NCBI RefSeq assembly: GCF_900162815.1
Contig: NZ_FUGD01000049.1
Span: forward strand, 1-64,000
DNA: 64,000 nt
Source of the DNA: Psychrobacter pasteurii
GTDB taxonomy: Bacteria; Pseudomonadota; Gammaproteobacteria; Pseudomonadales; Moraxellaceae
Direction of reading: 5' to 3'
Shown one piece after another: positions 52,493 through 61,335 of this stretch. Position numbers and translations under genes: made by a program. The notes under the pieces were generated by a model. The model saw only the letters and a list, made by a program, of their open reading frames with translations. It was not told where the DNA came from and ran no database searches. Positions within the stretch are counted from its first letter, which is position 1. Each line of letters starts with the position of its first letter.

Positions 52493-53290
52493 TTAATTCA
52501 TAAACCAACCGTGACTAGCTACAATCGACTGCCCAGTAAACACATTAGTTGGGAATGCTGCCAAAAATAGCGCTAACTGTGCAATATCTGCCGTACTGGT
52601 AAATTCCTTATCCACTGTATTAACTAGCATAATATCATTAACTACTTGCTCCTCACTAATGCCCTTTTCCCTTGCCTGTTCAGGAATCTGCTTCTCAACC
52701 AGCGGTGTTTTCACAAACCCTGGGCAAATCACATGAGAACGAACATTATATTGAGCGCCTTCTTTCGCCAATACACGACATAACCCCAGTAGCCCATGTT
52801 TTGCTGTTACATAAGGTGCTTTAAACAAAGATGCTTCATGTGAATGTACGGAGCCGGTATAAATCACCGTACCCACTTTGTCACTATCATACATATACTG
52901 TAGTGCCGCTTTTGTGGTCAAAAATGCACCGTCTAAATGAATAGATTGCATCTTTTTCCAATCACTAAAGCTTAACTTATGAATGGGATCAATGATTTGA
53001 ATACCTGCATTAGATACCAAAATATCAATACTACCGAAGTGTTTAACTAAGGCCTCTACTCCCTCATTTACCGCTGTTTCAGAGGAGACATCCATAGCGA
53101 TGGCTAAAGCCTTACCGCCTGACTCTTCAATGACTGCTGCTACTTTTTGTGCAGCTTCAAGATTAATATCTGCCACACCAACGGCTGCGCCTGCTTTGGC
53201 ATAAGTTTCAGCAATGTCACGACCAATACCACTAGCAGCGCCAGTAACCAATGCCACTTGGCCGGTTAAATCTTGATTTAGTTGACTCAT
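52493..53290 (-). CDS. hbdH: 3-hydroxybutyrate dehydrogenase
   Basis: Short-chain dehydrogenase that interconverts (R)-3-hydroxybutyrate and acetoacetate with NAD+. The 265-residue protein has the Rossmann motif TGAASGIG (17-24), NAG (94-96) and the catalytic set Ser147, Tyr160 and Lys164 (YVTAKHG). The substrate-family pattern [20 protein letters not shown] fits HBDH. AGGAG precedes the ATG. It is the last gene after scoA and scoB; together they turn 3-hydroxybutyrate into acetoacetyl-CoA. The start is 97 bases after the scoB stop. Symbol bdhA is also used. Confidence 0.93.
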
Positions 53291-53387: not shown

Positions 53388-54017
53388 CTACTGACTAATA
53401 GTAACTGGCGTATTTTTTTGTAGCTCTTCAAAACTTACACCATCAGCCAACTCTACTAGCTTAAGACCATTTTCAGTGACATCCATTACCGCAAGCTCAG
53501 TGATAATACGGTCAACCACTTTTTTTCCAGTTAAAGGCAGCTGACACTCAGCCAAGATCTTAGGTTCGCCATGCTTATTAATTTGCTCCATAAGTACGAT
53601 GACTCGCTGCACGCCAGCCACTAAGTCCATAGCACCGCCCATGCCTTTTACCATCTTACCTGGTATCATCCAGTTGGCTAAGTCGCCGTGCTCAGATACT
53701 TCCATTGCACCCAAAATAGCCAGGTTAACATGACCGCCACGAATCATAGCAAAAGAGTCTGAACTGCCAAAGAAGCTGGCGCCAGTTTTAGCAGTTACCG
53801 TTTGCTTACCGGCATTAATTAAATCTGGATCAACTTTATCTTCTGTAGGAAACTCACCAATACCTAATAGACCATTCTCTGACTGTAGCCAAACCTTCAT
53901 ACCTTCAGGGATATAGTTAGCTACCATGGTAGGCAGTCCAATCCCTAAATTCACATAAAACCCATCTTGTAATTCTTTAGCGGCGCGTTGAGCCATTTGC
54001 TCTCTCGTCCATGCCAT
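53388..54017 (-). CDS. scoB: 3-oxoacid CoA-transferase subunit B
   Basis: Beta subunit of succinyl-CoA:3-ketoacid (acetoacetate) CoA-transferase. The ATG at 54017, with AAGGAGT seven bases upstream, gives 209 residues starting [16 protein letters not shown]; the frame is open 21 codons further but that part is not typical. The catalytic glutamate is Glu47 in [15 protein letters not shown]. The motif [20 protein letters not shown] is also conserved. It follows scoA by 76 bases. Confidence 0.96.
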
Positions 54018-54093
54018 GTTAATACTCCTTGTTTGCTTTTTTATTCTTACAAAATATTTATACCAATCATTGATAACCATTCACTGTATGGTT

Positions 54094-54795
54094 TTATTTT
54101 TTGACAGTGATTTTTTCAATGCGTTTTTCTGGTGTGCTATTTAATACCAAACGCTGTACGAAAATACCCGGCAAGTGAATCTCATCAGCATCTAGCTCAC
54201 CAATCTCAACGATTTCTTCTACTTCAGCCACGGTGATTTTGCCCGCCATAGCACAATCTGGGTTAAAGTTACGGGCAGTTTTATTGAAAATTAGGTTCCC
54301 AGCTTTATCCGCTTTTTGGGCCTTCACTAACGCCACATCGGCTGTAAGTGAATGCTCTAGGATATAAGTGCGACCATCAAATTCACGGGTCTCTTTGCCC
54401 TCAGCCACTTGAGTGCCCACACCTGTAGCTGTATAAAAGGCTGGAATACCTGCCCCACCTGCACGCAGTTTTTCTGCCAAAGTCCCTTGTGGGGTTAATT
54501 CAACTTCTAATTCACCGCCTAGGAATTGACGCTCAAACTCTTTGTTTTCACCCACATAAGAGGAAATCATCTTTTTGATTTGACGCGTTTGTAATAGCAG
54601 GCCTAGCCCAAAGTCATCTACCCCAGCGTTATTACTAATACAAGTCAGCTCTTTAGCGCCGCTGTCTCTTAAAGCCAGGATTAGAGCTTCAGGAATACCG
54701 CATAGGCCAAATCCGCCGATGGCCAAAGTTTGTCCGTCCTGGATGATATCTTTTAGCGCAGCTTCGGCACTATCGTATACTTTTGATTGACTCAT
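54094..54795 (-). CDS. scoA: 3-oxoacid CoA-transferase subunit A
   Basis: Alpha subunit of the acetoacetate CoA-transferase, which moves CoA from succinyl-CoA to acetoacetate. The 233-residue length is normal. The family block [19 protein letters not shown] (about 20-38) is present, followed by [17 protein letters not shown] and [23 protein letters not shown] lies before the ATG. It is the first gene of the hbdH module and is divergent from the GntP permease with a 351-base shared region. Confidence 0.96.
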
Positions 54796-55146
54796 TATTC
54801 TCTCCCTGTTGAATCAACTTAATTTGTTGCGTAGACATTATCTATGCTGATAATGTAGGTTTTAGTAGAGCTATGAAATTTTTGGCTAGTTACGTACTCT
54901 TTTTTCAATAGTTATAGTGTATATTCGTAATATCTAATACAATGCAATTAGCCAGTAAATAGCTTATGAGCTCATTAGTTTACTGTATTTATCACTTATG
55001 GTACAACTGTTTACTTATACTCTTGTTTATCCTTCTATTTATATTGATCTACTTGATATAAGGACTTATCAGTAGCACAGCCAATTAAAGAAATTTAATT
55101 GGCTGAATGTTTCTTTATTCATACTCAAGCCAAGGAGAAGGCGTTT
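54796..55146. other. Divergent promoter region of scoA and the GntP permease
   Basis: 351 bases, AT-rich, no credible gene. It must hold promoters for both directions. The clearest structure is the 28-base hairpin at 55078-55105 in the leader of the permease. No sigma-54 type site was seen. Confidence 0.5.
55078..55105 (+). promoter_or_regulatory. 12-bp leader hairpin with GAAA loop before the GntP gene
   Basis: CAGCCAATTAAA (55078-55089) pairs perfectly with TTTAATTGGCTG (55094-55105) around a GAAA tetraloop, a very stable loop in RNA. It is 41 bases before the permease ATG and is followed by a T-rich stretch (TGTTTCTTTATT). It could attenuate or stabilise the permease mRNA, or act as a DNA palindrome for a regulator. 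Confidence 0.55.
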
Positions 55147-56557
55147 ATGTTTAGCACACTTGCGATTATCATTACTTTATTATTGCTGATGTTTTTTTGC
55201 CTATCGCGGCTACTCAGTTTTAATCTTAGCCCCTATCATGGCTGTTTTAGCAGTCCTGTTGTCAGGTGACTTTTTAAGCAGTATCCCTGCCTATACTGAT
55301 GTATTCATGTCCGCGCTTAGTGGGTTCTTACTAAAGTTCTTCCCAATATTTTTATTAGGCGCATTATTTGGTCGTTTGATCGCCGACTCGGGTGCTGCAA
55401 CTGCCATTGCAAATACTGTTGTCGATAAGTTAGGCAGTAATAAAGCTATCTTAGCGGTAATTTTAGTATGTGCTATTTTAACTTATGGTGGTGTTTCATT
55501 ATTTGTGGTGGCTTTCGCAATCTACCCGATTGCCAAAAACCTATTTAAAGCCGCTGATGTCCCTAAGCGTTTAATTCCAGCAGCCATCGCTTTAGGGTCA
55601 TTTACCTTTACCATGACAGCTTTACCTGGCACACCTGCAATTCAAAATGCCATTCCTATCCCATACTATAATACCAACGTATTTGCCGCACCCATTCTTG
55701 GAATCATAGGGGCCGCGATTATGTTTTTTGCTGGTTGGTACTGGCTACAATCTCGTGCCAATAAAGCAAAATTAGCTGGCGAAGGCTATGGTGAACATGA
55801 TGATGATTTAGAGCAAAAAGGAGACATTGATCACAGCCAAACCACATCTGATAATCAAATTTCCTTTGTTACAGCAATGATTCCTCTTATCCTAGTTATT
55901 GGCCTAAATGCCCTATTAACTTATGTCGTGTTCCCAAGTCTAGACTTCAGCAGTTTGCAAGCTCAGTATCCTGACTTAAATATTCAGGGCTCTTTAGGAC
56001 TTTGGTCAATTATTATTGCTCTACTTGTAGCATGTACCGTCTTGGTTATATTACGCATTGGTCATTGGCATAATCTCAAGACCTCTATCAACCGTGGTAC
56101 ATATGAGTCTATGCTGCCCATCTTCAACACTGCCTCTGAAGTGGGATATGGTGCAGTTATTGCCTCTTTAGCCGGCTTTATTATTATTCGTGATAGTATT
56201 TTAAATCTTACCCCAGATAACCCCCTTATTTCTGAAGCAGTAGCTATGACTACTTTAGCCGGTATTACAGGCTCCTCTTCAGGCGGTCTAAGTATTGCAC
56301 TATCAACCCTAGGGGAAAACTATTATCAAATGGCACTGGCCACAGGCATTAACCCTGAGCTTATGCACCGAGTAGCAGTTATGGCCGCAGGTGGACTAGA
56401 CACGTTACCGCATAGTGGTGCGGTGATTACTTTACTGGCAATTTGTGGTCTTACTCACAAACAATCTTATTTGAATATAGCTATGGTAACCATGCTGATC
56501 CCTTTAGTAGCCACTACTACTGTAATTATTTTAGGAACGTTACTAGGGTCTTTTTAA
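55147..56557 (+). pseudogene. GntP-family permease, broken by one extra T
   Basis: The gene should start at the ATG at 55147 (AAGGAGAAGG upstream): it reads MFSTLAIIITLLLLMFF, then reaches T7 at 55192-55198 and runs out of frame to an early stop. With six T the frame would continue AYRGYSVLILAPIMAVL into the long frame that ends at 56557, about 469 residues in all. The rest is a normal GntP permease (LKFFPIFLLGALFGRLIADS, SFTFTMTALPGTPAIQNAIP, ITGSSSGGLSIALSTLGENY, GGLDTLPHSGAVITLLAI). It probably imports 3-hydroxybutyrate or acetoacetate for the divergent sco/hbdH genes (inference from position). The slip may be a sequencing error, a mutation, or phase variation. Confidence 0.8.
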
Positions 56558-56584
56558 TAAAAGAATAGAGTAAAAAAACTTATT

Positions 56585-56625
56585 TAAAGAAGCCTTCTTA
56601 TTTAGGTAAGAAGGCTTCTTTAGCA
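56585..56625 (+). terminator. Terminator after the GntP gene
   Basis: A 16-bp perfect stem TAAAGAAGCCTTCTTA (56585-56600) / TAAGAAGGCTTCTTTA (56607-56622), loop TTTAGG, then a short T-rich tail (GCATTTTATTT). Confidence 0.85.
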
Positions 56626-59112: not shown

Positions 59113-60240
59113 ATGGATTATCAAATGCAAAAACAGTCAAACCTCCCCTCATTGTTTCTTTCTGCCAAGCCAGCTTCTGTTATTAATTCTACTGTAAAAA
59201 GTAAGACAGTTTGGCGCAGTATGATGGCCATGACGCTTGGGGTTAGCTTAGCGACATTAAGTGGCTGTGCTGATAAGCCAGCAGCTGAAGCTGATGAAGC
59301 CGCTGCGACAACAACCAAAGAAGCTAAGACAGTGGCAATCACTCAAATCGTTGAGCATCCCTCATTAGATGAGATTCGCCGTGGCATTATCGAAGAGCTA
59401 GCGGACAGTGATTACATTGAAGGCCAAAACCTAACGGTTAACTTCCAAAGTGCGCAAGGTAATACTGCAACTGCAGGGCAGATTGCCAAACAGTTTGCAG
59501 GCGATATGCCAGACGCTATCGTTGCCATCTCCACCCCTTCTGCACAAACTATCGCGGCATCAACTACCACTATTCCTATTATTTATACCGCCATCTCAGA
59601 TCCTTTAGCGGCTAAATTAATTAATGAAAATAACGTGCCGACCCAAGCTAACCTAACCGGTCTGTCGAGCCAGTTGCCTATTGAACCACCTTTAGATTTA
59701 ATTCAAAAGATTGTTCCTGATGCTAAGACCATTGGCTATGTTTATAGCCCTGGCGAAGCAAACTCAGTTACCGTGTTAAAGCAGTTACAAGAGGCCGCTC
59801 CAGCCCGAGGTCTAAAAATCTTAGAAGTAACTGCCAACCGTCCTACTGACGTGGCTATGGCAACACGCAGCTTACAAGGCCGTGCCGATGTTATTTACAC
59901 CTCTTTAGACAACAACGTTATCAGCGCCTTTGAAGCTATGGCAAGCGCTGCTAATGAAATGAAAATTCCAGTAATTACCTCAGATGAGTTTAGTGTACGC
60001 CGTGGGGCGACTGCTGCATTAGGGGTTAACGACTATGACTTTGGTCGTGTTACTGGCAAGATGGTATACCGTGTGTTAAACGGAGATGCCATTACAGATA
60101 TTAAACCTGAAGTTATGAACAAACTGACTTTATACGTCAGTCCAAAACATGCCAAACAGCAAGGCGTTACTCTGGATTCTTCTGTTATAGCCGATGGCAT
60201 TAATGTCGATGAAACCAAGCCAAGCAATGAGGCTAGTTAA
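59113..60240 (+). CDS. ABC transporter substrate-binding lipoprotein (TrpX-like), copy 1
   Basis: A 375-residue periplasmic-binding lipoprotein of the COG2984 / ABC_sub_bind type. The lipobox LSGC has its cysteine at residue 52, giving an unusually long N-terminal region; the real start may be further in, but no better start codon with a ribosome site was found. The mature protein reads KTVAITQIVEHPSLDEIRRG, FQSAQGNTATAGQIAKQFAG, YSPGEANSVTVLKQL and ALGVNDYDFGRVTGKM. Homologous systems in Firmicutes import tryptophan; the ligand here is not visible. It is 69 bases upstream of a paralogue that shares the same pattern. Confidence 0.9.
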   Translation: MDYQMQKQSNLPSLFLSAKPASVINSTVKSKTVWRSMMAMTLGVSLATLSGCADKPAAEADEAAATTTKEAKTVAITQIVEHPSLDEIRRGIIEELADSDYIEGQNLTVNFQSAQGNTATAGQIAKQFAGDMPDAIVAISTPSAQTIAASTTTIPIIYTAISDPLAAKLINENNVPTQANLTGLSSQLPIEPPLDLIQKIVPDAKTIGYVYSPGEANSVTVLKQLQEAAPARGLKILEVTANRPTDVAMATRSLQGRADVIYTSLDNNVISAFEAMASAANEMKIPVITSDEFSVRRGATAALGVNDYDFGRVTGKMVYRVLNGDAITDIKPEVMNKLTLYVSPKHAKQQGVTLDSSVIADGINVDETKPSNEAS

Positions 60241-60309
60241 GAGCAGTAAACTCATGACTCTTATAGACGGAAACTTATAAGAGAGTACTATATCCCAGGA
60301 GATTGACCC

Positions 60310-61335
60310 ATGTATAATAAAAATCGCTTTATCAAAACCCTAATGTGGGGCGGCGTTGCAGCAGCAGTTTTAACTGGCTGTAACCAACCTGCTAACGACA
60401 ACGCGGCAGCAGATAATAATGCAGATACGCCAGCGGCCACAGAAGTCAAACAGGTAGCCATTACCGCCATTGTTGAACACCCTGCATTAGATGCTGTCCG
60501 CCAAGGTGTCATCGAAGAGCTTGCTGCTGAAGGTTATGAAGAAGGCAAAAACCTAGAAATTAACTTCCAAAGCGCTCAAGGTAACACAGCCACCGCAGGT
60601 CAGATTGCTAAGCAATTCGTGGGAGACAATCCTGACGTTATCGTAGCTATCGCTACCCCTTCAGCTCAGTCTGTAGCGGCTGCGACTAACTCAATTCCTA
60701 TCGTATTCTCTGCGGTTACAGATCCCGTTGAAGCCAAACTACTAAAAAGCTGGGATGGCTCAGGCACTAACGTAACTGGTGCCTCTGACGTCCTACCGTA
60801 TGAACCACAAATCGACCTAATGAAACAGATCATTCCAGGTCTAAAAAATGTGGGTTACGTTTATAGTCCAGGTGAAGTGAACTCAACTATTGTTCTAAAG
60901 AATCTAGAAGAAAAGCTAACGCCAATGGGCATCACAGTTCATTCAGCCCCAGCTCAAAAGAGTAACGACATTGCTATGGCAGCACGCAGTATCGCTGACA
61001 AAGTTGATGTTATCTATAGCTCTACAGACAACAACGTAGTCTCTGCTTATGAGTCGCTATATCAGGTGGCCAAAGAAAGCAAAGTACCTTTAATTGCGTC
61101 TGATACAGGCTCAGTAGAGCGCGGTGCAGTAGCAGCACTGGGCGTAAACTATCATGACTTAGGTCGTGAGACAGGTAAGATTGTGGTTAAAATCTTAAAA
61201 GGCGAAAACCCAGGGACTATCCCAGTTTATAAAGCCGAATCTTTAGACCTATACCTCAGCAAGAGCCATGCTACTGAACAAGGTATTGAACTGCCACAAG
61301 CTCTTCTTTCTCAAGCCAAAGAAGTTCAAGACTAA
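60310..61335 (+). CDS. ABC transporter substrate-binding lipoprotein (TrpX-like), copy 2
   Basis: A 341-residue paralogue of the preceding gene. It has a short, normal lipoprotein signal: lipobox LTGC with Cys24. The mature protein carries the same landmarks (VAITAIVEHPALDAVRQGVI, NFQSAQGNTATAGQIAKQF, VGYVYSPGEVNSTIVLKNLE, AALGVNYHDLGRETGKI). GGAG lies before the ATG. The two copies probably arose by tandem duplication and may bind different ligands, or the same one with different affinity. A terminator follows before the permease gene. Confidence 0.92.
   Translation: MYNKNRFIKTLMWGGVAAAVLTGCNQPANDNAAADNNADTPAATEVKQVAITAIVEHPALDAVRQGVIEELAAEGYEEGKNLEINFQSAQGNTATAGQIAKQFVGDNPDVIVAIATPSAQSVAAATNSIPIVFSAVTDPVEAKLLKSWDGSGTNVTGASDVLPYEPQIDLMKQIIPGLKNVGYVYSPGEVNSTIVLKNLEEKLTPMGITVHSAPAQKSNDIAMAARSIADKVDVIYSSTDNNVVSAYESLYQVAKESKVPLIASDTGSVERGAVAALGVNYHDLGRETGKIVVKILKGENPGTIPVYKAESLDLYLSKSHATEQGIELPQALLSQAKEVQD

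Follow-up and report, generated by a model that had tools for sequence, protein, structure and literature searches.

Seven-T frame break in a GntP-type permease gene of Psychrobacter pasteurii: an apparent young frameshift allele or assembly slip

The stretch of 64,000 nucleotides analysed here, referred to as the window, carries a GntP-type permease gene of Psychrobacter pasteurii the reading frame of which is broken close to its 5' end. A ribosome binding site, AAGGAG (55132-55137, forward strand), was read in the window inside a GCC..GGC element and is followed by an ATG at 55147. The frame opened by this ATG (55147-55269, forward strand) codes for 40 residues and, according to the translation of the window, terminates at the TGA in 55267-55269. 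The remaining permease frame, taken from the ORF list, extends from 55190 to 56557 on the same strand; a stop codon lies directly before 55190, and the frame is then open up to the stop at 56555-56557, with a length of 455 aa in the comparison table. The first usual start codon in it is the ATG at 55238, which leads to 439 aa. The two frames are joined at a tract of seven Ts (55192-55198, forward strand), and past this junction no further stop or frame break was detected in the permease sequence. The initial annotation had described a good ribosome site with an upstream start at 55147 and had placed the break exactly at the seven-T tract. Both descriptions proved correct, and the start was found to be conserved in relatives, as the ribosome site is in most of their leaders.

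The gene is flanked by a terminator-like stem-loop of 18 pairs at its 3' side (56584-56623, forward strand) and upstream by an inverted repeat of 12 pairs with a 4-base loop (55078-55105, forward strand), a possible hairpin of the leader. The neighbouring genes on the reverse strand are all intact and code for 3-oxoacid CoA-transferase subunits A (scoA, 54094-54795, the divergent neighbour) and B (scoB, 53388-54080) and for 3-hydroxybutyrate dehydrogenase (hbdH, 52493-53290). On both strands of the window, seven-T words were counted 36 times compared with a shuffle mean of 33.9; as a chance-level word, T7 was rejected as an unusual motif.

The 439-aa part matched the GntP permease profile PF02447 with 44.2 bits at a cut-off of 22.5, and the permease of an intact relative resulted in 47.1 bits, the match starting at residue 5 and profile position 8. 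The permease is thus a member of the GntP family by its PF02447 match but is distant from the gluconate branch, since the score with the gluconate:H+ symporter subfamily TIGR00791 was 38.8 bits compared with a cut-off of 292.75. A second, typical GntP protein, with 322.7 bits, is encoded on another contig of the same genome. No related solved structure was detected by sequence (the best E-value, 0.15, belonged to unrelated proteins), and the Rfam scan gave nothing above the gathering score. Hydrophobic segment 1 falls within the first 30 residues of the intact permease, and segment 2 begins there as well.

The best 30 places of a genome search were made into loci, 29 of which represent other genomes. 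In all 29, the N-terminus runs on without a break as MFSTLAI..TLLLLMFFAYRGYSVLILAPI, apart from minor differences. The tract in these genomes was TTTTTT in 20 cases, TTCTTT in 5, TTCTTC in 2, and TTTTTC and TCCTTC in 1 each, so that a C is present inside the tract in 9 of the 29. A set of named loci, overlapping with the former one, was also read: 64 of 80 fetched loci, consisting of 54 from Psychrobacter and 10 from Halomonas/Vreelandella. The other 16, which were excluded from the tract reading, are homologues at a greater distance and include two Psychrobacter paralogues. All 54 Psychrobacter loci carry six bases (TTTTTT in 30, TTCTTT in 19, TTCTTC in 3, TCCTTC and TTTTTC in 1 each), with a C inside the tract in 24; the 10 Halomonas/Vreelandella loci have other codons at this position. 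A seventh T was found in none of the 29 other genomes or the 54 Psychrobacter loci. Among the named loci fetched, the closest relative is Psychrobacter piechaudii, the protein of which is 97% identical.

Reading upstream led to the usual Met in 52 of the 54 Psychrobacter loci; the two exceptions are L103, in which a stop is reached within a few residues, and L104, which has Ile instead of Met. The comparison with related strains that the initial annotation had proposed yielded the six-base, two-codon form in all the Psychrobacter relatives read and an intact permease in most of them; the other genomes of the 105-genome table are known from the open-frame length alone. Because the relatives have a continuous N-terminus and a six-base tract, the upstream start at 55147 is ancestral; the long tract was encountered in this assembly only.

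The dN/dS values against genome G039 were determined to be 0.015 for the permease over the shared 439 codons, 0.007 for scoA and 0.026 for scoB. Two outgroups were used to assign changes by parsimony; the branch of this genome received 33 synonymous and 2 nonsynonymous ones, and the branch of G039 27 and 6, respectively. The dS to the outgroups is near saturation, which leaves the G039 comparison and the counts per branch as the usable values. The purifying selection downstream of the break agrees with the earlier claim that the change is recent. Judged from these substitutions, the permease was working until very recently or works still. Such strong purifying selection beyond the break implies a lesion of very recent date, an artefact, or a break that is bypassed.

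A permease match was obtained in 89 of 105 genomes; G032 and G055 contain only a 52% paralogue, which leaves 87 orthologues by the count of the table. Uninterrupted genes, with open frames of at least 471 aa, were present in 77 (11 of these are split in the table by an insert inside one open frame), and the rest were the window's own gene and nine interrupted or shortened ones. The 3' half is lost and the gene joined to the terminator-like region after the permease in G023, G035, G057 and G041, the last of which appears to have a frame break too. Frame breaks were detected in G027, G048, G050 and G085; the permease of G067 stays in frame and is shorter at its 3' end. The deletion common to loci L033, L034, L035 and L038 (G023, G057, G035 and G041, respectively) appears to be a gene loss that was inherited.

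In the same 105 genomes, scoA was uninterrupted in all 94 orthologues (at least 85% identity). The hbdH gene was incomplete in 5 of 89 orthologues (G027, G041, G048, G081, G085), and the nearby mgtE gene in 5 of 55 orthologues among the matches listed (G004, G007, G027, G028, G050). Breakage is not special to the permease, since mgtE and hbdH are also incomplete in some genomes. Four of the 10 genomes with a broken permease have a broken hbdH as well. In L103, L104 and L038 (G085, G027 and G041, respectively), permease and hbdH are both broken and scoA is intact.

The completeness of the G048 and G050 assemblies is 84 and 86%, respectively; because of these low values, their permease breaks may be sequencing or assembly errors. 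The metG gene aligns only partly in L114 (Psychrobacter sp. JCM 18903, the G050 record; 71-695) and in L064 (WY6; 1-550), which may reflect sequencing errors in those assemblies. From the assemblies as they stand, the permease is read as a gene lost or broken in several Psychrobacter lineages. The fact that scoA is never interrupted and the permease, hbdH and mgtE sometimes are suggests that uptake of the substrate is dispensable in several lineages.

With moderate confidence, the seven-T tract is explained best by a recent single-base expansion, T6 to T7, in this strain, which would leave the permease frame-broken and null. The gain of one T in the six-T stretch would put the first permease codons out of frame with the remainder, and a frame break against intact orthologues, as expected of a recent pseudogene, is what the alignments contain. 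Translation from the ancestral start would end in a 40-residue peptide with one hydrophobic segment. For the remaining frame only the internal ATG, without a visible ribosome site, would be available, and its product would begin part-way through the second membrane helix, with the first one missing. A null allele is therefore the most likely outcome. Overall, the T7 permease looks like a common kind of frameshift allele of young age, or like a slip in assembly, and a switch is unsupported. The gene should be marked in annotation as frame-broken and not as a 439-aa permease with an internal start; beyond annotation the break has little meaning.

An assembly or sequencing error, with six Ts and an intact permease in the isolate itself, is the main alternative and somewhat less probable. 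Seven Ts were encountered in a single draft assembly only, consisting of 229 contigs, and the strong purifying signal beyond the tract is what an error, or equally a bypassed break, could produce too. According to the available part of the GeneTack survey (PMC3711429), a homologue-confirmed frameshift that occurs in one genome only is expected to be a sequencing error rather than a real indel. The permease break resembles these singletons, being likewise a single break confirmed by homologues and lacking a conserved frameshift site, and no feature that distinguishes it from those described in that part of the survey was found. Apart from the break the gene is clean, which makes the event either very young or an error.

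However, when 70 genes of the same contig, with 22,820 residues, were compared with G046, and 54 with G044, the permease remained the one gene found to be split between frames; the overlapping sets cover 104 kb of the contig. Seven-T words are common in the window, and a homopolymer-prone technology should have left more breaks. The split-gene test needs the second frame at an E-value of 1e-10 or better and is weak for breaks near gene ends; the permease's own break appeared in it merely through an end that failed to align. The same was true of 2 of the other genes among the 54 (G044) and 6 among the 70 (G046), and one weak partial match was obtained with G044 (44-121 of 128). These missing ends are probably due to the start choice of mechanical ORFs or to divergent ends. 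At the sensitivity of the test the contig is not error-rich, because no other gene is split between frames. An error-rich assembly as the sole cause was rejected for the same reason, and one error stays compatible: a single event in 22,820 compared residues may be a real indel as well as an error.

The initial annotation had also suggested that the tract could act as a switch through phase variation or transcriptional slippage, and this part found no support. Phase variation, in which replication slippage in the T tract turns the gene on and off, would call for a change of the T6/T7 kind near the start of a gene, as is present here. Nevertheless, the tract is short, whereas phase-variable genes are recognized by repeat tracts longer or commoner than chance, and T7 occurs at chance frequency. 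It was seen in no relative read, and in many of them the tract is interrupted by C. On these grounds phase variation is very improbable. That T6 (on) and T7 (off or leaky) exist as interconvertible alleles within the species is, likewise, highly improbable; if they did, populations would switch a hydroxy-acid permease while the ketone-body enzymes stay on.

A bypass would mean that T7 lets transcription slip, or the ribosome slip by +1, often enough to supply sufficient working permease, and would agree with the selection still seen downstream of the break. Judged from the codons, the same tRNA could re-pair fully after a +1 shift at TTT-T. A precedent for such a run at a frame junction is mxiE of Shigella. 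The genes with transcriptional slippage described in the available part of PMC1088944 (Thermus dnaX, mxiE and insertion sequences) are alike in having a T or A run at the junction, but the run of the permease is shorter than theirs and not conserved. Slippage in transcription is associated with about nine A or T in many genomes, the length differing between bacteria (PMC1088944, as far as its text was available), and with T runs longer than eight in the accessible text of PMC3711429. The latter text also describes seven-base A runs as known ribosomal slip sites, so that length alone is no bar to a ribosomal slip, although no sign of its use was found here. In the available portion of PMC5574713, no case of a transcription error that restores the frame was found. 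The tract is not conserved, unlike what a programmed site would need, and a programmed frameshift or slippage site was rejected since the slippery sequence is not conserved among the homologues. A bypass is thus given very little probability. That translation genuinely begins at the internal ATG 55238, where the long open frame has its first usual start, and that nothing ahead of it is coding, was rejected as extremely improbable: orthologues starting there, which the initial annotation had named as a finding that would speak against the break, were not encountered, the upstream 30 residues being conserved in frame and continuous in 29/29 and 52/54 relatives, and the ribosome site precedes the upstream ATG.

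The linkage to ketone-body genes, also claimed earlier, is real in Psychrobacter, where scoA accompanies the permease in 53 of the 54 loci and hbdH in 50; the four loci without hbdH (L045, L080, L086, L091) end early at contig ends. Neither scoA nor hbdH was found beside the other 26 loci, which comprise Halomonas/Vreelandella at 64-65% identity and the rest at 43-66%, including two Psychrobacter paralogues at 56%. Because the linkage is not seen beside these more distant homologues, the substrate suggested by it can only be inferred; a short hydroxy acid is plausible. Selected neighbours were scanned in five of the 26 loci. An iron-dependent alcohol dehydrogenase was detected in L106 and L107, an aldehyde dehydrogenase of the methylmalonate-semialdehyde type in L107 and L110, and IclR regulators adjoin the permease homologues of L106 and L110. 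The scanned neighbours are transport-type genes in L093; those in L118 consist of one frame without a match and one coding for an MgtC-type protein. These two loci gave no hint of a hydroxy acid. The homologues of L106, L107 and L110 are 54-56% identical, and their dehydrogenase context, with an IclR-type regulator in two of the three, hints at a family of short hydroxy-acid permeases.

When the leaders were folded, G039 and G044 also gave a hairpin close to this position, although its bases differ, followed there by a T-rich stretch about 20 bases before the ribosome site; this T-rich stretch is weaker in the window. No hairpin was seen by eye at that position in the other leaders folded. The hairpin at 55078-55105 might be an attenuator in a small clade formed by the window, G039 and G044. 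The ribosome site lies in GCCAAGGAG..GGC (55129-55142), which is kept with small changes in most of the Psychrobacter leaders read while the remaining leader diverges, and which may fold into a small hairpin that covers this site.

At 59113-61335 of the window, two similar adjacent frames of 375 and 341 aa resemble, by eye, substrate-binding lipoproteins and are followed by a membrane-protein-like and an ATPase-like frame. The two could have arisen by duplication of the binding protein of a single ABC importer.
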